Assembly: GCA_000342265.1 (NCBI GenBank)
Contig: CP004348.1
Coordinates: forward strand, 1,178,001-1,242,000
Origin: a beta proteobacterium CB
GTDB taxonomy: Bacteria; Pseudomonadota; Gammaproteobacteria; Burkholderiales; Burkholderiaceae
Length of the DNA: 64,000 nt
Direction of reading: 5' to 3'
Shown here in pieces: positions 16,520 through 37,109 of the stretch; the stretch's first letter is position 1, and every line of letters begins with the position of its first letter. The notes under the pieces were generated by a model. The model was not told where the DNA came from. It worked only from the letters and a program-made list of their open reading frames with translations, and did not search any database. Both the position numbers and the translations under genes were made by a program.

Positions 16520-17340
16520 ACTGCCAGCGTCCGTTTCTCGTCAAGAGATTCTAGCAACGCTAACTCCTCAGAGGTAAAGCCAGCTTGCTCGCGCGCATCA
16601 AAATTGAACGGCCCTCTTAAAGTGGGTGCACGGTATTTCTCGGCCAACTCTCGATAGGTCACAATTGGGGATAGCTTGTCATTGGCGCACAAGAAATTAA
16701 ACCAGCGATTGCCAACAAGCACATGGCCAATTTCATCATGAAGAATGATTTCTAGAATTTCTACAGCGCGATCATCTTTGATTTGCTTAAACCGATCCCG
16801 AATCTCCGGAACCGCATCAAGACCTCTTGCCTCCATCGTTCTGGGAACTAGAGCCATCCGAGCAATGACTGAATCTGTCGTTCTCTCAACCATCTCCCAC
16901 AAACTATTGTGAGCCGGAAAATCGCCATAACTAAATCCAAAGGACTGTAAATGGGCATTGATCAAGCTAAAGTGATATGACTCTTCTTTTGCCACCTTCA
17001 ACCAGTCTTCGTAATACGCCTTAGGCATATTCGGAAAACGCCAAACTGCATCCAGCGCTAAATTCATGGCATTAAATTCGATATGGGCTAAGGAGTGCCA
17101 AAGGATAGCTCTGCCTGCAACCGTATCCATTTTTCTTTTGGGAACAAGCTTCGGCGCAACTAAGTCCGGCTTAGCGGGTCGACCCGGGAGGCAATGATTT
17201 TTACTATCGAGATTGCCAGATGGATTTACAACAATGCGCCCGGCTTGATACTCATCGAACAAGTTGGCCAACTGGCCAACCTTAGATTGCACATCGGTAT
17301 TTGCCAGTATTGCGAGGGAAGTTTCTCGTAACTCAAGCAT
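16516..17340 (-). CDS. DUF455 family ferritin-like protein
   Basis: 274 residues from ATG 17340. The DUF455 pattern is clear: E-L-R-E-x-x-L-A at the start, H-S-L-A-H-I-E-F-N-A, K-E-E-S-Y-H-F, P-R-T-M-E-A-R-G-L-D and H-D-E-I-G-H-V, giving a ferritin-like set of Glu/His metal ligands. An upstream in-frame GTG at 17379 lies in the remnant of the guaA 3' end left by the island, so it is rejected. The original neighbour upstream was guaA, whose remnant stop is 30 bp before this ATG. Role unknown; coupled to the radical SAM gene downstream. Confidence 0.85.
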   Translation of the reverse strand: MLELRETSLAILANTDVQSKVGQLANLFDEYQAGRIVVNPSGNLDSKNHCLPGRPAKPDLVAPKLVPKRKMDTVAGRAILWHSLAHIEFNAMNLALDAVWRFPNMPKAYYEDWLKVAKEESYHFSLINAHLQSFGFSYGDFPAHNSLWEMVERTTDSVIARMALVPRTMEARGLDAVPEIRDRFKQIKDDRAVEILEIILHDEIGHVLVGNRWFNFLCANDKLSPIVTYRELAEKYRAPTLRGPFNFDAREQAGFTSEELALLESLDEKRTLAV

Positions 17341-17369
17341 GGCTATGGGCAAAGGCGAACTTAAGTCGC

Positions 17370-17387
17370 CTATTCCCACTCAATAAC
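17370..17387 (-). pseudogene. Remnant of the guaA 3' end at the left island junction
   Basis: Read on the minus strand this stretch encodes V-I-E-W-E-stop, matching the I-E-W-E-stop end of the intact guaA at 24855. The shared core TCCCACTC(A/G)ATA occurs at 17374-17385 and again at 24859-24870. It marks the point where the original guaA ended before the element inserted and supplied a replacement end. Confidence 0.75.
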
Positions 17388-17636
17388 TACGTAAGTTTTT
17401 TTCTCTTTAAAATCAATCACTTACGTCTCCTAAATATTAGTGTGCAACTTTTGTGTTGCTACGAACAGCAAACCCAATAGCTACGTGCGTCTTAAAAGTT
17501 GTGCAATATCAATAGTTTAGTGGATTAATGGTTACACAACGTGCAATTGCTGAATTAATAATGTATTGCAGTAATAACAAAATATGCTGTACATTAATTT
17601 TATTAGAAATAATATAACTAATGCTTGGAGTTAAAA
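17388..17636. other. Non-coding left end of the island
   Basis: No gene is seen. It holds a perfect 8-bp inverted repeat ACGTAAGT (17389-17396) / ACTTACGT (17419-17426), the left copies of the two end repeats (17405-17424 and 17436-17455), and AT-rich DNA with a TATAAC-like element near 17613 that could serve the following small gene. It probably includes recombinase arm-binding sites. Confidence 0.5.
17405..17455 (+). repeat. Left pair of island-end direct repeats
   Basis: Two 20-bp sequences (17405-17424 and 17436-17455), each with a one-mismatch direct copy at the right end (24825-24844 and 24792-24811). Order is mirrored but orientation is direct. They fit recombinase or accessory-factor binding sites of an att region. 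Confidence 0.7.
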
Positions 17637-17879
17637 ATGAACGGAATTGCTAGATACGACGAAAGAAACAATAGACTTATTGTTGTTCGAAATGGTGAAA
17701 ATATGGAAAGATATATACCTTGTACAAATTTCAATCCAAATTCGGATAAGTATTTTGGAGTAGAAACAAATGGGGATGAAATATATTTGCTAGTTGGTCC
17801 AACCAATAATAGCCGTCCAAACAGAAAAATAGTTTACAAGTTCTCCAGCTTAGGCGGAGGCGCAAGTAAGTCAATGTAA
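17637..17879 (+). CDS. Small hypothetical protein of the island
   Basis: 80 residues from ATG 17637 with TTGGAG seven bases upstream. The protein is polar and asparagine-rich (A-R-Y-D-E-R-N-N-R-L, then N-F-N-P-N-S-D-K) and has no recognised motif or membrane segment. A weakly similar pattern (Y-K-D-E-S-N-R) occurs in a 24-codon reading frame at 21801. It is convergent with the 186-residue gene downstream, with 12 bp between stops. Function unknown. Confidence 0.5.
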   Translation: MNGIARYDERNNRLIVVRNGENMERYIPCTNFNPNSDKYFGVETNGDEIYLLVGPTNNSRPNRKIVYKFSSLGGGASKSM

Positions 17880-17891
17880 CAATCAGCAATA

Positions 17892-18452
17892 CTAAACTTT
17901 AAAATTTAGTATCTCCCACTCAGCAATAGGTAATTTATTCTTGCGTGCCTCATTTTCAATTAATGTAAATCTTTTTTTGTGCTCATCTAAAGAATTTACA
18001 AAAGTCCAGGTAGCATCAACACCTTTTGCCTCAGTAAGCCTTAAAACAACATTGTCTATTGGACATATTGGCGGCATGAAAATTCTACCTAAGCACCACA
18101 AATGCTTAAGGTATATGGATAAACTTTTTTGAGCATGAGATACGCGGAAACCATTTCCACCTTTGTGATAGCTTAAAAAATTGCCACGATATAAGTTATT
18201 CATTGTGGATTGCAATGAAATGAAATCTATTTCAAATTGAGATACAGACTGAGAATTAACGTACTTCTCTGCTTTACTAGCTAACTCAGCCTTCCACGAA
18301 TCTCTAATTTTCCTTCTTAAGGTTAAGTCAAGATTAGATGAATAAAGTTTATTGTGCTGAACGGATGCAGAAATAGCTTTCGATTGAGCAACAACAATAG
18401 AATGAGTTGGATTATACTTTTGTAAAAATTCTAACTTTTTTTGCTCAATCAT
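17892..18452 (-). CDS. Unrecognised protein linked to the MmeI-like restriction enzyme (third gene of operon)
   Basis: 186 residues from ATG 18452, which has AGGTGG six bases upstream and sits nine bases after the stop of the preceding gene. The second half carries what looks like a conserved core: Y-L-K-H-L-W-C-L-G, P-P-I-C-P-I-D-N-V-V-L, W-T-F-V and a terminal I-A-E-W-E. I do not recognise a named family; I have an impression of similar proteins in accessory regions of other proteobacteria but cannot verify it. No membrane segment. Position suggests a function with the restriction enzyme or an independent defence role. Confidence 0.6.
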   Translation of the reverse strand: MIEQKKLEFLQKYNPTHSIVVAQSKAISASVQHNKLYSSNLDLTLRRKIRDSWKAELASKAEKYVNSQSVSQFEIDFISLQSTMNNLYRGNFLSYHKGGNGFRVSHAQKSLSIYLKHLWCLGRIFMPPICPIDNVVLRLTEAKGVDATWTFVNSLDEHKKRFTLIENEARKNKLPIAEWEILNFKV

Positions 18453-18461
18453 CGTTACCAC

Positions 18462-18938
18462 CTAGACATTATAATTAGCTAAAGTAATAGTTAACTCTTC
18501 GTGAATTAAATTAGCCTCTTGAGACAAGAGATTTACAGTTTCATCGTTGTTAAAGGTTTTTCCAAGCGCACTATCATCTTCAAAAAGCTTCTCACCAATA
18601 CCAAAAAAATCCTTAATTGCTAATGTAAATTTATTTGGTGGATTATCCTTTTGCACTTCATACATAGAATGGATAATTGGGTAGATATCTGTGTGTTTTT
18701 GCTTATAACGAATGGATAATTTACCGTCAGCGAATGCTAATTGCTTTTTGAAACTGTAGAAATTGTCTAAAGTAAAGTTACTTAACAGATCGTTAAATAA
18801 AACTGAAATTTCTCGTATTGCTAACACGTCATCGTCATACAATTCATCAGTCTTATCAAGCAATTGTTGAATTTTTATCAATAAAAATTTATATGAAATA
18901 AGTACATTCTTAGCCATTGCGGTGTGCGTAGCATTCAT
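18462..18938 (-). CDS. Unrecognised helical protein linked to the MmeI-like restriction enzyme (second gene of operon)
   Basis: 158 residues, predicted mostly helical, with long runs of charged and hydrophobic residues (for example L-L-I-K-I-Q-Q-L-L-D-K-T-D-E-L-Y-D-D-D) and no recognised motif or signal peptide. ATG 18938 has AAGGAAA seven bases upstream. It starts 10 bases after the stop of the restriction enzyme gene and stops 9 bases before the next ATG, so the three genes are almost certainly one operon. Function unknown. Confidence 0.6.
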   Translation of the reverse strand: MNATHTAMAKNVLISYKFLLIKIQQLLDKTDELYDDDVLAIREISVLFNDLLSNFTLDNFYSFKKQLAFADGKLSIRYKQKHTDIYPIIHSMYEVQKDNPPNKFTLAIKDFFGIGEKLFEDDSALGKTFNNDETVNLLSQEANLIHEELTITLANYNV

Positions 18939-18948
18939 AATATTTTCC

Positions 18949-21759
18949 TTAAATTAGCAATTCACCATCATTAGTTTTCTTAGCACGCTTCTTCTTAACT
19001 ACAGTAGCTGGCAACAAGCTGGTTAACTCTTCATAACGCTTAAACAAGAATGCAACTCTGCTTGCATCATCATCGCCACCTTTGTAGCCATATGCTTCAT
19101 CAACAGCTTTATTATTAGCTTGATGTGCTTTAACGAGCTCAACTGGCATTGTTAAGGGATCGTATAAATCTGCTAATGATGCGTTTTTATAAAGGTTTCT
19201 TGCGTCTAAAATTGATTGTGCTGTTAATTTAAGGCTATTACATAAATTGCTATCATCTAAGTTACACCAGACATAGTTGTTATAAACAACATCTTTACTG
19301 TAACGATAATCACTTTTAAGCCTTCCACAAATAGTTCTCATCCAAGCATTGTGCATTGATGAATTGATAACAGAAAAATGCTCTAAGCCAGCATTTTCTA
19401 CCGTTAATAATGCATCGCTTGCAATAACATCACTGTTAACGTAAGCAATTGGCAAATATATTCTTCGCTCTGATGAGTGCCGAGGAAATGCAAGCCAGCT
19501 TGAATTTGGTTGCGCTATTTGGCAAAATAAATGGGGTATTGATGCAAATTTTCTAGTAGATTCTGCTTTACTGTCAAGTCTAAATTGTTTAGTACGCTCT
19601 ACTCTTTTAAGAACTTTTGGCAACTTTGATAAAACATTCGGCTCAATACCAACCAGCCACAAACAGTAACGCTCTCCGTTATTAATTAAGTCATCTGCGC
19701 CTAAAAACCTTCGTATCCAACTTTTAGCATCAGACTCAGTACTCAAAATATCATCTTTATCATCTTTAGTAAGCAATAAATTTCCACCATCACGAGGCAT
19801 ATTTCCATACCTCATTACAGGAACATTGCTAACTGGCGAATCCCTATTAGTAATAAAGATATTTGGGGCGCTAATTAAATAAGGATTAATATTTGAAGAA
19901 AAGGAACAAATCGGATCACTTGTTGCATCCTTGTAACTAAAAAGCTGCTTTTCACAATTTTTAACATTACTAAAACCAATAATTACACAATGAACGGCTG
20001 CAACTCCTCTTCCCTCATTGCTCCATTTAAATGTTTGATGGGCAAAATTAATTTGTATTCCATACTTAGTCACTAAAGGTGCCCATAAAATTGAAACCTG
20101 CTCACCTTGCGTAATACTATTAGTTGAGACAAAAGCACAATTAATATTAGTGTTTTTAATATATTCTGCAGTTTTCCAATACCAGCACGAAACATAGTCA
20201 AGTGTTCCACTGCCTTTTAATCCGTCAAAAACTAATTCTATATCTTTACGTTGCTCTTCATTCAATAACATTGCACCATAAAACGGGGGATTACCGAACA
20301 CGTAACTACAATCCTCAGCATTAAGTACGCTATTCCAATCCATACGTAATGCGTTACCACAATGTATATGTGGGGTTGCTACTAAAGGAACTGTTGCACG
20401 TGTTTCGCCAAACCTACTACCACTTTCTAAGTTAAGCTGATGGTCAGTTATATACATAGCTACACGTGCAATATGTACTGCTGCCTCATCAATCTCAATA
20501 CCGTAAAACTGTTCTATGTTTACTTTGCAATATTCCTTAACGTCTAATAAGCCACCCTGTTCGCCTTTAAAGTACAGCTTAGCAATTACGTCATTTTCAA
20601 TACGCCTTAATTCTCTATATGCAATAACTAAAAAGTTACCGCAACCACACGCTGGATCAAAAAAATTAAGTGTATGTAACTTATCGTAAAGTGCTTGTAA
20701 CTTAGGTTTAGTTACAGCTTGTTCAAATTCCTTATGTAACTCATCTAAAAAAAGCGGTTGAATTACCTTAAGTATGTTGCGCTCGCTTGTGTAGTGTGCA
20801 CCTAACTCTCTTCTACTTTCTTTGCGATGTGCTGTATCTGTAGCACCTGACTCTAGTACGCTTTGGAACATTGCGCCGAAAATAGCTGGACTAATACCAC
20901 TCCAGTCCAATTCCGAGCACTTAACTAATATTGTTCTTAAGTCAAAGTTAAAGCTAGGTATTGCTATTTGTTCCGCAAATAATCCACCATTTACATATTC
21001 AAAAGCCTTAAGTGCTTCGTCTAATGTAGTTTGTCGCTTGTCGTGTGGTGTATTAAGTACTTGAAATAGCATAGCAATAGCCATTCCCAAGTCACTACCA
21101 TCTTCCTTAGTCTTAGCAACTAATCTTCTAAATTGTCCATCTTCACCAAATATCCCTGTATCGTCTGCAAATAAACAAAACAGCAATCTTGTCAAGAAAC
21201 TCTCTAAATCCTTACCAGTGTAATTAGCCTTAAGTAGTGCATCGTGTAACTTAGCAATCTGTTCTACAGCTTTGCGGTTAATTGGCAATTCCTCGCTGTA
21301 AGCAATAACCTGCTTGTCAATTAAGAAATTAAACCAATCTGCACGCTTACTTATTTCTTCTAACTTACATACTTGAGGTTCTTTGTCTAAGCTGTGTAAG
21401 TTATACAGATGGAATGTTTGAAAATCACAAACTAGGATGTACTTGGGCTTTTCAAACTCATTAGTAATAGCCATTGCATAGTCAAGAGCTTGCTCATATG
21501 CTTTATATAAGTTCTCACCAGTAGTTTTCTGCTCCACAAGCAATACACCAGGGATAAAGCTGTCAATAAATCCACGTGTATTGCCAAACTTCAATACCTT
21601 CTTCTCAAACATAGAAGCAGAGCTTTTGCTTAATCCAAAGCAAGCATAGAAATCACGCATAAATTGCTGTGCGTATTGCTTCTCTTCCCTATCGTTTTCG
21701 TGCTCTTTAGCGAATAGCTGTAAGCGTCTACGAACTTCGTTGATGGTTATATCTGACAT
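18949..21759 (-). CDS. MmeI-like (Type IIL) single-chain restriction-modification enzyme
   Basis: 936 residues, close to MmeI (919). Domains in order: N-terminal nuclease with the MmeI pattern D66-x9-E76-x-K78; a helical spacer (about 150-320); gamma-class adenine methyltransferase with motif I D-P-A-C-G-C-G-N-F (near 368) and motif IV N-P-P-F (489-492); a presumed target recognition domain (about 640-830); and a C-terminal helical part with a Lys-rich tail. Such enzymes both methylate adenine on one strand of an asymmetric site and cut about 20 bases away. All key residues are intact. It heads an operon with two unknown genes; no separate methyltransferase is needed. Recognition site not predictable here. 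Confidence 0.88.
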   Translation of the reverse strand: MSDITINEVRRRLQLFAKEHENDREEKQYAQQFMRDFYACFGLSKSSASMFEKKVLKFGNTRGFIDSFIPGVLLVEQKTTGENLYKAYEQALDYAMAITNEFEKPKYILVCDFQTFHLYNLHSLDKEPQVCKLEEISKRADWFNFLIDKQVIAYSEELPINRKAVEQIAKLHDALLKANYTGKDLESFLTRLLFCLFADDTGIFGEDGQFRRLVAKTKEDGSDLGMAIAMLFQVLNTPHDKRQTTLDEALKAFEYVNGGLFAEQIAIPSFNFDLRTILVKCSELDWSGISPAIFGAMFQSVLESGATDTAHRKESRRELGAHYTSERNILKVIQPLFLDELHKEFEQAVTKPKLQALYDKLHTLNFFDPACGCGNFLVIAYRELRRIENDVIAKLYFKGEQGGLLDVKEYCKVNIEQFYGIEIDEAAVHIARVAMYITDHQLNLESGSRFGETRATVPLVATPHIHCGNALRMDWNSVLNAEDCSYVFGNPPFYGAMLLNEEQRKDIELVFDGLKGSGTLDYVSCWYWKTAEYIKNTNINCAFVSTNSITQGEQVSILWAPLVTKYGIQINFAHQTFKWSNEGRGVAAVHCVIIGFSNVKNCEKQLFSYKDATSDPICSFSSNINPYLISAPNIFITNRDSPVSNVPVMRYGNMPRDGGNLLLTKDDKDDILSTESDAKSWIRRFLGADDLINNGERYCLWLVGIEPNVLSKLPKVLKRVERTKQFRLDSKAESTRKFASIPHLFCQIAQPNSSWLAFPRHSSERRIYLPIAYVNSDVIASDALLTVENAGLEHFSVINSSMHNAWMRTICGRLKSDYRYSKDVVYNNYVWCNLDDSNLCNSLKLTAQSILDARNLYKNASLADLYDPLTMPVELVKAHQANNKAVDEAYGYKGGDDDASRVAFLFKRYEELTSLLPATVVKKKRAKKTNDGELLI

Positions 21760-21800
21760 AGATTACATATTAACTGGTATTGGACTAAGGATAAACACTA

Positions 21801-21875
21801 ATGACTAGAAACAGAATATGGGCATATAAAGATGAAAGCAATAGGTTTTATTACTATTCTGTTAAACATAACTAA
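21801..21875 (+). CDS. Possible 24-residue peptide
   Basis: A short frame from ATG 21801 to TAA 21875 just upstream of the 93-residue gene. It resembles weakly the start of the 80-residue island protein (D-E-x-N-R with aromatic residues after). No clear ribosome binding site. It may be a leader peptide, a fragment or chance. Confidence 0.2.
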   Translation: MTRNRIWAYKDESNRFYYYSVKHN

Positions 21876-21889
21876 CTGGAGAATTGAAT

Positions 21890-22171
21890 ATGGCAAAAGG
21901 TACACGTACAGCTAAGACAGCAGAACAGCTAAAAAAGGATGTTGAAATTGCAGAGCAGAAATTAATTGCATTAAAAAGACGTGCATTTTCTGGTGAGATT
22001 ACTGAAATGATTAAAAACTCAACTATAAAAGCTGAATTCGATAAGATTTTAAAAGAAGCTAAAGGTGTGACTGATATTGCAATACTTGAAGCTATTGGTA
22101 CGATTGTAGGAATTAAGCGTTTAGTTATTAGCCAAAGCCCTAAAGCTACACGTAAGCCAAAAGCAAAGTAA
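21890..22171 (+). CDS. Small basic, coiled-coil-type protein of the island
   Basis: 93 residues from ATG 21890 with GGAG nine bases upstream. An N-terminal amphipathic helix (A-E-Q-L-K-K-D-V-E-I-A-E-Q-K-L-I-A-L-K-R) could form a coiled coil, and the C-terminus is a basic tail (K-A-T-R-K-P-K-A-K). This layout recalls nucleoid-associated or small DNA-binding proteins, but no H-NS or MvaT motif can be confirmed. It lies three bases before the next gene, so the two are co-transcribed. Function unknown. Confidence 0.55.
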   Translation: MAKGTRTAKTAEQLKKDVEIAEQKLIALKRRAFSGEITEMIKNSTIKAEFDKILKEAKGVTDIAILEAIGTIVGIKRLVISQSPKATRKPKAK

Positions 22172-22174
22172 GTT

Positions 22175-22543
22175 ATGCCACGTAAGCCAAGCAAAACAAT
22201 TGATGAGCAGATATACGAAGCAAGGCTGAAGATTACTGAGGCTAAGGAAAAGTATTCTGCCCAACGTTATTTTGAAACAATGCCTACGTATGATCCCCTT
22301 TATAAGTATTGCTATACAACATCAAACCGAACAATACCTGGCTATGAGCAAAATGTAGATGATTGGCTACGTGCAGTAATTAAGCATATGGGATTGCGAC
22401 ATAGAGGACACGGTGGCGAGTTAACTAAAGCTGTACTTATATCAATACCTACAGGACTTAGCACTAAGGATATTGATACGTGGATTGATTATGAAACACG
22501 TAAGTTAAGAAAACTTGCTACTGGCAGAGCTAAGAAAAAGTAA
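22175..22543 (+). CDS. Small basic hypothetical protein of the island
   Basis: 122 residues. It starts three bases after the preceding stop and ends with TAA overlapping or abutting ATG 22544 (TAAATG). It is rich in Lys/Arg at both ends (M-P-R-K-P-S-K and G-R-A-K-K-K) and contains W-L-R-A-V-I-K-H-M-G-L-R-H-R-G-H-G-G-E-L in the middle. No recognised family. Basic character and context suggest nucleic-acid binding; this is inference. Confidence 0.55.
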   Translation: MPRKPSKTIDEQIYEARLKITEAKEKYSAQRYFETMPTYDPLYKYCYTTSNRTIPGYEQNVDDWLRAVIKHMGLRHRGHGGELTKAVLISIPTGLSTKDIDTWIDYETRKLRKLATGRAKKK

Positions 22544-22591
22544 ATGTCTAAGTCATATCCAACATCTTATTCACAATTTAAGAAACTGTAG
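22544..22591 (+). pseudogene. Short frame that may be the cut-off start of the DUF6641 gene
   Basis: ATG 22544 follows the stop of the upstream gene directly (TAAATG), the arrangement of a coupled next gene, but after 15 codons (M-S-K-S-Y-P-T-S-Y-S-Q-F-K-K-L) it hits TAG at the very start of the 102-bp inverted-repeat segment. The DUF6641 reading frame resumes in another frame on the far side of that segment. A natural reading is that one gene was interrupted by the segment. Confidence 0.35.
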
Positions 22592-22688
22592 TATCCCCCG
22601 TCAAGCCGACATTCCTAGCGATCTAATACGCCTTGGCTATGGCCGTGAGCGGTATCTTTTAAATGTACGAATCTAAGGGGATACTACA
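22587..22688. repeat. 102-bp segment bounded by perfect 12-bp inverted repeats and carrying a guaB fragment
   Basis: TGTAGTATCCCC (22587-22598) and GGGGATACTACA (22677-22688) are exact reverse complements. The 78 bp between them include the 40-bp guaB copy. No target duplication is evident at the edges. If transcribed rightwards with the flanking genes, the RNA would fold into a long stem-loop presenting antisense guaB sequence. It could instead be the scar of a template-switching event. Confidence 0.75.
22618..22657 (-). repeat. Exact 40-bp copy of an internal guaB segment
   Basis: Bases 22618-22657 are identical to 27192-27231 in guaB; the match begins GCGATCTAATACGCC and ends GAGCGGTATCT, and stops abruptly on both sides. 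In guaB it encodes [13 protein letters not shown] (residues 246-258, the conserved D-x-A-H-G-H-S region). It has the same orientation in both places, so plus-strand transcription in the island gives RNA fully complementary to guaB mRNA. Chance is excluded by length. Confidence 0.95.
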
Positions 22689-23040
22689 ACAGGAACAGTT
22701 AGATATGTGTGAAGCTAAGCGTAATCAGCAACCATACGCACCTAAACGTCTTAAAACTGTTGTTAATAAAGAAACTGGTGAACGCACTACTATTGAGACT
22801 ATTAAGCGTGTTAAGGAGTGGTTTTGGATTACGGAAGATGGCAAGATTAACTTGGCTGTTAAGTATGGTGCGAAAACACTGACTTTGGACAAGAAAAAAG
22901 GCTGTAACGCAATTGAGTTAATGAATGGTACTGCTTTGATTGGTACTTTACACAAACTTAAAGAAGCTGTAATTGCTGGTGAATTTGATGATGCAATTAG
23001 TGAAGTTAGTGATGCTACACGCAAGGCATTTAAAAAATAG
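22663..23040 (+). CDS. DUF6641-like protein, N-terminus probably altered
   Basis: 125 residues from ATG 22663, or 112 from ATG 22705, which has AGGA about ten bases upstream. The core (Y-A-P-K-R-L-K-T-V, then W-F-W-I-T-E-D-G-K-I-N-L-A-V-K-Y-G-A-K and K-K-G-x-N-A-I-E) matches what I recall of DUF6641, small proteins common on betaproteobacterial mobile elements. Homologues usually have about 25 further N-terminal residues, and here a stop codon directly precedes ATG 22663 and the 102-bp inverted-repeat segment replaces that region. Function unknown. Confidence 0.65.
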   Translation: MYESKGILQQEQLDMCEAKRNQQPYAPKRLKTVVNKETGERTTIETIKRVKEWFWITEDGKINLAVKYGAKTLTLDKKKGCNAIELMNGTALIGTLHKLKEAVIAGEFDDAISEVSDATRKAFKK

Positions 23041-23046
23041 TGTTAG

Positions 23047-23084
23047 TTACGTGCCCCATTGTTTTAAGGATTTGGGGCACGTAA
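23047..23084 (+). terminator. Stem-loop after the DUF6641-like gene
   Basis: TTACGTGCCCCA (23047-23058) and TGGGGCACGTAA (23073-23084) form a perfect 12-bp stem with a 14-base loop, seven bases after the stop codon. There is no strong U-run after it, so it is either a weak terminator or an RNA-stabilising hairpin. Confidence 0.55.
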
Positions 23085-23108
23085 ATGTAATAAAACAATA
23101 AATACTTT

Positions 23109-23252
23109 ATGAGACGTTATAAAGCTATTGTGAACGCGAGTGGTATGTGGGTTGAGACTATTTTGTATGCACAAAATCAAGCACAAGCATATAAGCTATT
23201 CCAAGCAATATTTGGTAGCAGTAATGTGCCACATCAACCTACACAACTTTAG
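23109..23252 (+). CDS. Very small hypothetical protein of the island
   Basis: 47 residues, M-R-R-Y-K-A-I-V-N-A-S-G-M-W-V-E-T, then an Ala/Gln-rich helix (Y-A-Q-N-Q-A-Q-A-Y-K-L-F) and a G-S-S-N-V ending. The pattern beta-hairpin, then helix resembles short proteins found beside integrases on betaproteobacterial islands, from memory. No clear ribosome site. It is followed four bases later by the 55-residue gene. Confidence 0.4.
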   Translation: MRRYKAIVNASGMWVETILYAQNQAQAYKLFQAIFGSSNVPHQPTQL

Positions 23253-23256
23253 TACT

Positions 23257-23424
23257 ATGAAGATACTTGAAATTACAGCAATTAAGCCACCTAATCCACA
23301 ACAAGCACGGATTGATGGACTTAAGAGACAGAAGGAAGCTAGTACGAAAGCATTAAAGGCTGAGCGTGATAGGCAGAAGATTACTAAGGCACAGCAGACT
23401 ATTGCTAGTGTTAGGTTGGGATAA
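23257..23424 (+). CDS. Very small basic helical protein overlapping the integrase 3' end
   Basis: 55 residues from ATG 23257, highly charged and helical (Q-Q-A-R-I-D-G-L-K-R-Q-K-E-A, then K-A-L-K-A-E-R-D-R-Q-K-I-T-K). A longer frame could begin at 23140 but has no sensible start. Its last 14 bases overlap the 3' end of the convergent integrase gene. A small basic protein next to an integrase could be a directionality factor, but no excisionase motif is recognised. Confidence 0.4.
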   Translation: MKILEITAIKPPNPQQARIDGLKRQKEASTKALKAERDRQKITKAQQTIASVRLG

Positions 23425-24694
23425 GCAAGCCGTCTTTAAGTGTATATCCTGCAAACGCATTAGCAATTAGCTTAGCGTCTGTTGTGTGATAGTACGTATT
23501 TTCTATTTGCGTAGTACTTGTTCCAGCAATTTCCGATACTGATGTTGGTGCTAAGCCACTGTTAACTTTACTTGTAATGTAATAGTGTCTAAAGCTATAC
23601 GGCACTATGTTGCGTTTCTCTAAATTATCAACTTCTGCCAATTGCATTATCTTGTCAAAGTGATAAGCGATTGCACGGTTACTTATTGCTGTATCTCCAT
23701 TAGCACTAAAAATTAACGTATTGCCAAACTTCTTCTGCTCATCTTTTTCTTTTGTTTTTTGGTAGGCTGTTATGCGTGGATATTGCAAGTTGAATAAGTC
23801 TGCAAAAAAACCAATATCTTTTTCAACAATCCTACGTGTTCTATTAACCTTGCTTGTTTCAGCCCTAATCGTTAACTTAACCAATCCATAATCTTCGCCA
23901 GCTACCTTATGCTCAAACTCCTCATAATCTCGCCACTCTAACTGTATCTGCTCACCTCTACGCAAACCAAACATTAAACTTATCATTAAGTAGTAACCAG
24001 CAATAGCTTTAACTAAGTTACCTTTTTCATTAATGTTTTGCTGTGCGTCTGTTATGTATTTTTCTAATTCAGTTCTTATAGCCACTACTTCATCGTCTGT
24101 AAAGCTATTACGCCTTAAACTTTCATCACCTCTATCAGCACGCTTTAGTTTCGTAAATTCAAAGCCATTTATATTAGTTTCACCGTCTTTGTACAGCACC
24201 TTCATCATTGCGTTAATCGTAGCTTGCTCGTTTTCTATTGTTGTTTGACTGATTGATTTTTTCTTACCTACCCCATTTTGTCTTGCTTTAAAGTAATCTT
24301 CACAAGCACCAATTCCCAACTCTTTTAGCTTAGTATCACGCTTAATATAGTCAAGCCAATGTTCTAAGTGCGTCTTAATAGTACTAAATCTACCTTTAGT
24401 AATGTTCACACCAATATTTTTTTCACGCTTTGCCAAGTACTTCTCAACACCATCTTTAGCTGTCTTGCTAAAGTGCGAAACTCCCGCAAACTCCTTAGCC
24501 TTAAGTTCGTAATAGTGTTTTTTAAGCTCTTCTTTAGCTGTGTTTAAGTTAGTAGTGTTTAAACTTAAGCGTACATATTTGCGCTCTTTAGCTAACCACA
24601 TCCTAAAGTGCCAATACTCTCCACGCTTGTAAATAACAGCGTCTTCAAATACAGCAATCTCAGTTCCGTTTGTTTTAACTTTTTTAGTTGGCAT
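23411..24694 (-). CDS. Tyrosine recombinase (site-specific integrase of the island)
   Basis: 427 residues with an N-terminal arm/SAM-like DNA-binding half (about 60-170) and a C-terminal catalytic domain. The first catalytic Arg is in F-G-L-R-R-G-E-Q; the box II motif reads Y-S-F-R-H-Y-Y, so the first histidine of the usual H-x-x-R-H is replaced by Tyr/Ser while R and the second H remain; the nucleophile is in E-N-T-Y-Y-H-T-T. It lies 160 bp from the right junction and points inward. No clear ribosome binding site at ATG 24694. It presumably inserts the element at the guaA end. Confidence 0.88.
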   Translation of the reverse strand: MPTKKVKTNGTEIAVFEDAVIYKRGEYWHFRMWLAKERKYVRLSLNTTNLNTAKEELKKHYYELKAKEFAGVSHFSKTAKDGVEKYLAKREKNIGVNITKGRFSTIKTHLEHWLDYIKRDTKLKELGIGACEDYFKARQNGVGKKKSISQTTIENEQATINAMMKVLYKDGETNINGFEFTKLKRADRGDESLRRNSFTDDEVVAIRTELEKYITDAQQNINEKGNLVKAIAGYYLMISLMFGLRRGEQIQLEWRDYEEFEHKVAGEDYGLVKLTIRAETSKVNRTRRIVEKDIGFFADLFNLQYPRITAYQKTKEKDEQKKFGNTLIFSANGDTAISNRAIAYHFDKIMQLAEVDNLEKRNIVPYSFRHYYITSKVNSGLAPTSVSEIAGTSTTQIENTYYHTTDAKLIANAFAGYTLKDGLLIPT

Positions 24695-24854
24695 TTAATT
24701 TATGTGTAGCTGTCTATTTTCATAGCTACAAAAATGTGTAACTATTTCAACAACTATAAATTAAATTTATAACGATTACAATGACTTAGTAATTAGTGTG
24801 CCACTTTTGTGCTACTCGTAAATCCTTTAAAATCAATGACTTACAAGCGTGTTT
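24695..24854. other. Integrase-proximal right end (att region)
   Basis: Non-coding. It contains an inverted repeat GTAGCT / AGCTAC near 24706-24730, the right copies of both island-end repeats (24792-24811 and 24825-24844) and a further AATGACTTA half-repeat at 24779-24787. The guaA stop at 24855 begins the core. It should also hold the integrase promoter. Confidence 0.55.
24792..24844 (+). repeat. Right pair of island-end direct repeats
   Basis: Right-end partners of 17436-17455 and 17405-17424, one mismatch each, in direct orientation but reversed order relative to the left end. They lie between the integrase gene and the guaA stop. Confidence 0.7.
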
Positions 24855-26462
24855 TCACTCCCACTCGATAGTTGCCGGCGGTTTTCCGCTAATGTCGTAG
24901 ACCACGCGATTAATACCACGCACTTCATTGATGATGCGATTAGATACCTTGCCCAGTAGATCATGCGGCAAGTGAGCCCAATGCGCAGTCATAAAGTCTT
25001 GCGTTTGAACCGCTCTGAGAGCGACAACGTATTCATAGGTTCGACCGTCACCCATAACGCCTACAGACTTCACTGGCAAGAACACTGCAAAGGCTTGACT
25101 AGTAAGGTCGTACCAAGATTTTTGACTTGCTTCATCAATCGTATTGCGCAACTCTTCAATGAAGATGGCATCAGCACGTTGTAAGAGGCTAGCGAATTCT
25201 GTTTTGACTTCACCTAAGATGCGCACACCAAGACCAGGCCCCGGGAATGGATGGCGATAGACCATCTCACGTGGCAAACCTAAAGCAACACCAAGCTCAC
25301 GCACTTCATCTTTAAACAACTCACGTAATGGCTCAAGCAATTTGAGATGCATATCTTCAGGCAGGCCACCCACATTGTGGTGACTCTTAATCGTATGCGC
25401 GCCCTTTTTACCTTTACCGGCAGACTCAATCACGTCTGGATAAATAGTTCCCTGAGCAAGCCACTTGGCATTTTTAATCTTGCCAGACTCTGTTTGGAAA
25501 ATCTCAACGAATTCTTTACCAATGATTTTGCGTTTCGCTTCTGGATCAGCAACACCAGCAAGCTCAGACATAAACTTCTCTTTGGCATCTACACGAATGA
25601 CTTTGACGCCGAGGTTGCGGGCAAACATTTCCATCACCATGTCGCCTTCGTTTAAACGCAGCAAACCATGATCAACAAATACGCAGGTGAGTTGCTCACC
25701 AATTGCACGGTGAATTAATGCCGCCGCCACACTAGAGTCAACGCCGCCAGACAAGCCCAGAATGACTTCTTCATCGCCAACTTGCTTACGGATGTGCTCA
25801 ACTGCTTCGCTAATGTAGTCGCCCATTACCCAGTCAGGCTTGCACTTGCAAATATCGTGCACAAAGCGAGCCAAGATGGCCTCGCCTTGCAAGGTATGTG
25901 TTACTTCTGGATGGAACTGGAATGCGTAGAATTGACGCTCTTCATCAGCCATACCAGCAATTGGGCAAGACTCGGTTGAAGCCATTAGCTTAAAAGCTGG
26001 TGGTAGTGTCGTTACCGAGTCGCCATGACTCATCCACACCTTGAGAATGCCGTGACCCTCGCTAGTGGAGAAGTCTTGAATGCCTTTCAGCAAATTGGTG
26101 TGGCCATGGGCACGTACTTCAGAGTAACCAAATTCACGGGCTTTACCCAAGGACTCTGCAGAAGCAACGGCGCCACCGAGTTGGGTCGCCATGGTTTGCA
26201 TACCGTAGCAAATACCGAGAACTGGGACACCTAATTCGAAAACAATTTGCGGCGCACGAGGACTTCCGTCTTCTGTAACCGAGCTTGGCCCACCAGAAAG
26301 AATAATTCCTTTACCACCCTGCTCTTGAATGAATTTACGAATAAATTCTGGATCGCAATCGTAGGGATGGATTTCAGAATAGACGCGGGCATCACGCACG
26401 CGTCTGGCAATCAATTGGGTGACTTGTGAACCAAAGTCGAGAATCAGTATTTTGTCGTGCAC
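24855..26462 (-). CDS. guaA: GMP synthase (glutamine-hydrolysing)
   Basis: 535 residues. The N-terminal class I amidotransferase domain has the nucleophile Cys85 in G-I-C-Y-G-M-Q and the H-P-E-V motif; the ATP pyrophosphatase domain has the P-loop G-L-S-G-G-V-D-S-S; the C-terminal dimerisation domain ends in I-E-W-E. It converts XMP to GMP. The final codons overlap the island core (24859-24870), so the present 3' end came from the element and the gene stays intact. It follows guaB by 36 bp, a guaBA operon. Confidence 0.97.
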
Positions 26463-26498
26463 GAAAGGATTACCTTAAATTCAGCCTACTTTTACTTC

Positions 26499-27974
<1,476 letters not shown>

Positions 27975-27991
27975 CTAGTCGCAAAAACCGA

Positions 27992-28342
27992 TTATAGCCT
28001 CCTAGCCTTTCTTTTAGCTGCGGCAGCCTGGAATTTAGCATCCTGATTCTGGTTGGCCCTCTTGCGGCGGACAGTCTTGGGGTCCACCAGGAGCGGTGAA
28101 TACAACTCCAGACGATCCCCTTCGTAAATCGGGCTATCCCAATCCTTGCGCTTGCCAAAGACCCCAAAACAGCCTTTTCTAGCCAAAATGGGATCATCGA
28201 AACCCTTAGCGATTCCAGCCTTAATAAGAGCTAGCCCCACTGTGGGAGCCTCAGATGGTGATAAATGGAGTGTGAAGGGCTGTAGCTGGGGCTCACCCAA
28301 GCGGGCATCGCAAATCAGAATCTCCATCGACTGATTAGCCAT
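27992..28342 (-). CDS. RnfH family protein (UPF0125)
   Basis: 116 residues with a ubiquitin-like fold pattern: I-C-D-A-R at the first strand, A-G-I in the helix end, G-C-F-G-V-F-G-K and G-D-R-L-E-L-Y-S-P-L-L-V-D-P-K, followed by R-R-K-R-A typical of RnfH. It overlaps the ratA gene by 8 bp, the conserved ratA-rnfH pair. The C-terminal tail is longer than usual and Lys/Arg/Ala-rich. Function is unclear in the family. Confidence 0.88.
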   Translation of the reverse strand: MANQSMEILICDARLGEPQLQPFTLHLSPSEAPTVGLALIKAGIAKGFDDPILARKGCFGVFGKRKDWDSPIYEGDRLELYSPLLVDPKTVRRKRANQNQDAKFQAAAAKRKARRL

Positions 28343-28766
28343 AAAGGTCTTCAGCTCGCTTTACGAAGCAATCTACAAAGGTACCTGCAATATGGCCAAA
28401 TACTGGGCCAATGATCTTATCTAAGATGACGCTCTTGAACTCCCAATGGAGCTTAAATTCCACCTTACAAGCATCTTCCTTGAGCGGAATGAAGTTCCAC
28501 TGACCGGAAAAATGCTTGAATGGGCCATCCACAAAGACCATATCAATGGTTTCAGGGCGGCGATTGGTATTTCGAGTATGAAAGTACTGATTAATACCCT
28601 TGAAATGGATGTTGATTTTGGCGTCCAAAACAGTTTCAGATTGCTCAAAAATTTCCACCCCGCCACACCAGGGCAGGAACTCAGGGTAGCGCGCAACGTC
28701 GGTCACTAAGCCATACATGCGGTCGGCTGATTGGCCAATTAAAACGGTCTTGTAGACGTCTGCCAT
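28335..28766 (-). CDS. ratA: RatA-type START-domain protein (ubiquinone-binding/ribosome association)
   Basis: 143 residues with the COQ10/RatA START fold pattern: Y-P-E-F-L-P-W-C near the N-terminus, D-G-P-F-K-H-F-S-G-x-W in the middle and the C-terminal helix D-C-F-V-K-R-A-E-D-L-Y-G. E. coli RatA inhibits 70S formation; related Coq10 proteins bind ubiquinone. It is divergent from smpB with 26 bp between starts, the conserved ratA/smpB arrangement. Confidence 0.9.
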   Translation of the reverse strand: MADVYKTVLIGQSADRMYGLVTDVARYPEFLPWCGGVEIFEQSETVLDAKINIHFKGINQYFHTRNTNRRPETIDMVFVDGPFKHFSGQWNFIPLKEDACKVEFKLHWEFKSVILDKIIGPVFGHIAGTFVDCFVKRAEDLYG

Positions 28767-36966: not shown

Positions 36967-36996
36967 AAAAGTATTCTTCAAGGTCTGCTTTCGACC

Positions 36997-37085
36997 TTGA
37001 TTTCAACCCGTCGATGCAACAGTTAGAGCAACACTCCTTGCGCTTACGCAGTTTGTAGTGTGTTGCATCGACGGGTTGAAATCAA
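36997..37085. mobile_element. 89-bp element with 25-bp perfect terminal inverted repeats (MITE-like, IS30-type ends)
   Basis: The left end starts TTGATTTCAACCCGTCGATG and the right end (37061-37085) is its exact reverse complement over 25 bases. GACC occurs directly on both sides (36993-36996 and 37086-37089), as a target duplication would. The end sequence with G-C-A-A-C-A-G-T-T-A resembles, from memory, IS30-family termini. There is no room for a transposase. It could also act as a terminator for the PSRP gene. Confidence 0.65.
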
Positions 37086-37109
37086 GACCCAAAGTAGACA
37101 TTGGCGGAG

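Follow-up and report, generated by a model that had tools for sequence, protein, structure and literature searches.

Why does a mobile island beside guaA carry an exact piece of guaB, the neighboring host gene? Self-comparison of the window, by which we mean the whole 64,000-nt stretch of chromosome analyzed here, showed that 22618–22657 (plus strand) is identical over 40/40 nucleotides, in direct orientation, to 27192–27231, and that the identity ends on both sides of the island copy. The source lies inside guaB, which is read on the minus strand, at about codons 245–258 of 488, where it encodes the DTAHGHS stretch. It is 4574 bp from the copy, on the same strand and at higher coordinates, and RNA transcribed along the plus strand through the island copy would be complementary to guaB mRNA. 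The preliminary description of this locus had reported the match, and its account proved accurate in coordinates, borders, coding content, antisense orientation and the AT-richness of the island (35.6% GC, versus 45.2% for the window). It offered two explanations, a trans-acting antisense RNA and a templated insertion scar. We favor the second and estimate at roughly 80% the probability that the guaB fragment is a templated-insertion scar of DNA repair inside a broken insertion sequence (IS).

Chance was rejected as the origin of the match. None of 2000 random 40-mers of the window recurred within it. Among 17 isolated exact direct repeat pairs of at least 20 nt, spaced within 20 kb, in 464 kb of the same chromosome, 16 look IS-, tRNA- or duplication-related when sorted by eye on sequence and position, and the guaB pair is the sole remainder. 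An origin of the fragment in another species was likewise rejected, since the genome's own guaB is the best match. Since the 40-mer agrees with its own guaB at 40/40 positions and the next best among the matches listed, from 151 genomes, agrees at 39/40 (98%), the comparison points to a recent capture in this lineage. Recombination by RecA across the resulting 40-bp direct repeat could in principle remove guaA together with part of guaB, a loss that would harm the cell.

Insertion sequence ends around the guaB fragment

What had been overlooked is that the guaB-identical filler is bracketed exactly by IS ends that terminate in perfectly matched 12-bp inverted repeats, TGTAGTATCCCC on the left and GGGGATACTACA on the right; the sequences on either side of the 40-mer read TGTAGTATCCCCCGTCAAGCCGACATTCCTA and TTTTAAATGTACGAATCTAAGGGGATACTACA. 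Both ends recur elsewhere in the chromosome, as the termini of a 1207-bp IS. The left stub (22587–22617, plus strand, 31 nt) matches IS positions 1–31 at 31/31 nucleotides and corresponds to the end downstream of orfB. The right stub (22657–22688, minus strand, 31–32 nt) matches positions 1176–1207 at 32/32 and corresponds to the end upstream of orfA. Base 22657, a T, is common to guaB and the IS, and the joints of the filler show 0 nt of homology on the left and 1 nt on the right.

The full IS lies on the same chromosome (G000:C1:1546138–1547344; L010) and is flanked on both sides by the 4-bp duplication TCTT. Its two ORFs are in different frames, and in Pfam searches orfA matched HTH_Tnp_1 (E = 6.5e-18) and orfB matched rve_3 (E = 2.8e-29). 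In the best 10 of 144 records of plasmid elements resembling it, nine carry the label IS3 family transposase and the tenth "transposase." Judged by its sequence, the parent is an IS3-family insertion sequence, and its ends were matched in at least 16 of 186 genomes of the genus, this genome included. By the same kind of evidence, 22587–22688 is a 102-bp, MITE-like deletion derivative of an IS3-family element, composed of IS 1–31, the guaB filler and IS 1176–1207 and oriented, by the direction of the lost transposase genes, on the minus strand. The flanks of the element, AAAC and ACAG, show no target-site duplication, and we have therefore classed it as a deletion scar rather than the product of a fresh transposition.

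A hairpin is predicted to close on the 12-bp inverted repeat, with an MFE of −32 kcal/mol and a z of −2.05; of 200 shuffled sequences, 7 were at least as stable. Its arms are plain IS inverted repeats, and ends of this IS would form such a hairpin in any case.

The interrupted island gene

The island (17405–24844, 7.4 kb) lies directly downstream of guaA and is flanked by 20-nt direct repeats that are 95% identical, a probable distal attachment repeat at 17405–17424 and a probable guaA-side attachment repeat at 24825–24844. Its integrase (23411–24694, minus strand) is tyrosine-recombinase-like, with a PF00589 match of 24.3 bits, below the cut-off of 27.1; in genome G011, related island genes adjoin a different ORF of 506 amino acids that we read as integrase-like. 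The island also encodes a 936-amino-acid MmeI-like type IIG restriction-modification protein (18949–21759), which has a 937-amino-acid counterpart in the G011 island.

To the right of the filler lies an N-truncated, DUF6641-like ORF (22663–23040, plus strand) whose match to PF20346 covers profile positions 56–140 of 143 at 26.7 bits, just below the cut-off of 27.0, and whose present first ATG falls within the IS stub. The closest island found, that of G011 (L078), is 95–97% identical to the window starting exactly at 22689, the base after the element, and its DUF6641-like gene has 32 extra N-terminal codons ahead of the shared part. The gene had 24 matches outside its own genome, of which 19 were examined as loci; an ORF with an N terminus farther upstream is present in 18 of the 19, and no ORF was found in the other (L066). 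These comparisons show that the 102-bp element truncated a small DUF6641-like island gene.

On the left, the element cuts off another small ORF after its start (22544–22586, plus strand), which is read from the sequence and begins ATG TCT AAG. The two flanking genes shared with G011 are separated by about 2.6 kb there, versus 145 bp in the window, and the G078 island likewise has about 2.6 kb between them. A deletion on the left side is not certain, and neither is its extent, because no counterpart of 22544–22586 was found in the related islands (L078–L081). A full IS at the site of the element was found in none of the genomes searched.

Could the fragment instead act on guaB? As the preliminary description envisaged, a plus-strand transcript through the element could act in trans. 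Its 40-nt stretch would pair with guaB mRNA and lower IMP dehydrogenase. The complementarity is perfect over 40 nt, the stretch lies within the predicted hairpin and the small island ORFs on either side run in the plus direction. However, a regulatory role would lead one to look for the fragment in island relatives, and there neither the guaB 40-mer nor the IS tips were present in any of the 19 gene-relative loci examined (of 24 matches), nor was there an exact match of more than 14 nt to the guaA–guaB region in the three guaA-side island stretches (G078, G085 and G020, the last two short). The target lies in the middle of the guaB ORF and not in the ribosome-binding region, a simple consensus scan of 22300–22900 found no promoter-like site on the plus strand, and a search of 17000–28500 gave no Rfam match at the gathering score. 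Were transcription to start in the IS end that precedes the transposase genes, the orientation of that end would be expected to give sense, not antisense, guaB RNA. Beyond complementarity, and a hairpin whose arms are the ends of this IS, our analysis added nothing in favor of antisense regulation, which we regard as very improbable.

Because it matches host sequence, lies between inverted repeats and sits in an island next to guaB and guaA, the 40-mer could also be taken for part of a sequence-guided device aimed at this locus, such as an atypical spacer of a CRISPR-like or CAST-like system or a homing or targeting guide. Yet the bracketing repeats are IS ends that occur elsewhere without guaB, the integrase is of the tyrosine-recombinase type, the probable attachment repeats lie beside guaA and not in guaB, and Pfam searches found a Cas or Tn7-like family in none of 10 proteins (eight island ORFs and two IS ORFs). 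We consider this explanation extremely remote.

Sister derivatives and a second filler

If the guaB fragment is a repair scar inside a broken IS, has the same IS been broken and resealed elsewhere? Two further derivatives of the parent IS were found in this genome. One (L012; C1:1590687–1590827) joins IS 1–110 directly to IS 1177–1207, with no filler, and is flanked on both sides by TCTT, the same flanks as those of the full copy. The other (L009; C1:1996844–1996956) consists of IS 1–65, 17 nt of filler and IS 1177–1207. A search allowing two mismatches placed the 17-nt filler at a single further site in the genome, where it matches exactly (C1:2001388–2001404); this site lies inside an ORF of 456 amino acids, presumably sulfite-oxidase-like (stretch L094). 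Genome-wide, the number of such matches expected from base composition is 1.6e-4 to 3.1e-4. An empirical comparison was less favorable to so short a filler: of 2000 random 17-mers drawn from the L094 stretch, 15 had a second copy within it, as did 3 of 2000 drawn from the window within the window; the L094 figure probably reflects repeats in that stretch.

Both fillers are fully accounted for by another site in the genome (40/40 for guaB, 17/17 for L009), and both sites lie about 4.5 kb away in cis (4574 and 4513 bp), on the same strand and on the same side, at higher coordinates. Read by eye, the joints of the 17-nt filler show no homology, and the two filler-bearing derivatives alike lack a target duplication. 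Templated insertions of the polymerase theta type have little or no homology at their joints. All three derivatives share the same stub at the 1207 end, 31 nt long, or 32 nt where guaB supplies the matching T. The filler-bearing examples number two, and both come from one genome. At eight solo IS ends of the genus that were read by eye (L025, L027, L029, L030, L043, L044, L046 and L090), no filler was seen.

An 826-bp segment comprising the start of an integrase-like gene and IS 1–65 is present identically at G000:C1:1996892–1997717 and 1551962–1552787, and the duplicated segment ends exactly at the 17-nt filler of L009. The full IS and the L012 derivative, with their equal flanks, lie in a cluster at G000:C1:1539751–1593505 (L095, L096) that contains 100%-identical direct duplications of 50–2670 bp in mosaic order around IS copies. 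Inspected for signs of general serial template switching, this cluster showed some joints for which normal IS insertion or the duplication of elements could account. In the window, 36979–37103 carries 43-nt inverted repeat arms, 88% complementary and 39 nt apart, which share a stretch with a repeat near the IS copies at C1:1535508–1569032.

That the same pair of IS ends, both tips intact, encloses two cores that differ and each match the chromosome might also be expected of a bacterial MITE of the Pack type, that is, a mobile family that regularly exchanges its core for host gene fragments and can transpose, and the resident full IS could presumably act on it in trans. However, neither filler element has the target duplication expected of a fresh transposition. 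Moreover, no other short two-ended element was seen in 186 genomes of the genus, among the matches listed and paired by eye, a survey that scored part of the candidates in IS-rich genomes and in which several IS ends fell at contig ends. A scan for exact tips 56–116 nt apart returned one record in genome contigs, by our own reading an unrelated GC-rich palindrome, and none in viral contigs. A mobile gene-capturing family is thus quite improbable.

How the broken IS may have been sealed

A templated insertion scar, the other explanation offered in the preliminary description, gains support from both observations: the filler lies between the stubs of a gutted IS, and a sister derivative has a locally matching filler of its own. 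We envision that an IS3-family element, or two copies of one, inserted into the island and that the IS interior was then lost along with adjoining island DNA, leaving two terminal inverted-repeat stubs. To close the break, presumably inside the IS, template switching or templated end joining would have copied in 39–40 nt of guaB, some 4.6 kb distant in the same chromosome. If two IS copies flanked the missing island DNA, its absence, the disappearance of the interior and the failure of the flanks to match would all follow from a single step. Two cases, each with a filler whose match lies nearby and in the same orientation, lead us to infer copying and not the capture of a loose piece of DNA. 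The fragment would, on this account, have no present function.

If a nearby site served as template, how were the two sources placed relative to the replication fork? The first ORF of the contig, at base 34, is presumably DnaA. The GC skew is −0.057 in the window and weakly negative (−0.012) in L094, compared with +0.063 in the first 3 kb. As both sources lie at higher coordinates than their fillers, the DnaA position and the GC skew together make them probably origin-proximal, in which case both would have been replicated before the fork arrived at the IS.

As for the enzymes, profile searches for Ku, LigD Prim-Pol and Prim-Pol families, PF09250 and PF21686 included, found no match in this genome, while in 14 genomes the controls were positive in one, three and two, respectively. 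The lack of such matches makes classical Ku-dependent NHEJ an unlikely sealing route. We tentatively propose, while considering it rather unlikely as it stands, that transposase complexes of the IS3 family set fixed borders of breakage at their own inverted repeats and that a Ku-independent repair process closes the broken IS with a copy, some tens of nucleotides long, of sister DNA lying about 4.5 kb behind the fork. If true, this would be a transposon-tied bacterial counterpart of polymerase theta templated insertion, able to build MITEs that bear gene fragments.

It is also possible, though unlikely, that a transposase-dependent deletion of the kind promoted by the IS excision enhancer (IEE), with a host or mobile enzyme of this type at work, removed most of the IS together with its flank, the filler being added at the joint. 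This would give our favored explanation a named enzyme, and the two are compatible. The portions of PMC9330008 and PMC9397093 available to us report that, under IEE, part of IS629, an IS3-family element, can be lost and large deletions arise next to it, much as proposed here in both respects and within the same IS family. The 31-nt stub kept on one side by all three derivatives also counts in its favor. On the other hand, no PF09250 or PF21686 match was found in the genome, by family profiles that may not cover IEE, and templated filler, which here matches locally, forms no part of the IEE accounts in those portions of the two papers.

Relation to known elements

With bacterial MITEs and internal-deletion derivatives of IS elements, such as MITEAba12, the element shares a size of about 100 bp, a lack of transposase and two terminal inverted repeats, as far as the available portions of PMC6382973 and PMC3189936 describe them; the second of these derives bacterial MITEs from internal deletion of a parent IS. 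Here the repeats are those of a co-resident parent IS. It differs from those elements in its core, which reproduces part of a neighboring host gene exactly, and in the missing target duplication. TIMEs and TIME-based composite elements, in the available part of PMC4133298, are also miniature inverted-repeat elements with differing cores, but they belong to the Tn3 family, measure 256–262 bp and mobilize whole segments when present in two copies, whereas here a 40-nt filler sits between two stubs. Plant Pack-TYPE transposons likewise place terminal repeats around captured host coding DNA (PMC8903248, in part); our cases are single copies holding tens of nucleotides, with no sign of spread. The templated insertions of alternative end joining of the polymerase theta type (PMC5068794 and PMC2895639, in part) also contain a short filler that matches another site, but here the host is a bacterium with no match to the Ku, LigD Prim-Pol or Prim-Pol families.

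IS deletion derivatives and templated insertions are both known kinds. In titles and the openings of abstracts, with few subscription papers covered, we found no published description of host-gene filler inside a bacterial IS deletion derivative, and we have not seen described a bacterial IS remnant with a recent, exactly traceable core from a neighboring host gene and a second case in the same genome.

The birth of bacterial MITEs is usually attributed to internal deletion of a parent IS, and we found few accounts of the way in which the interior disappears and the stubs come together again. At this locus the joints are still fresh, a likely template can be named and the pattern is repeated in a second case. 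The locus also illustrates how a conspicuous antisense-like match can turn out to be the scar of a repair event. Should the 31-bp border and the template distance of 4.5 kb recur in other genomes, both the birth of MITEs and a source of short filler in bacteria would become testable.
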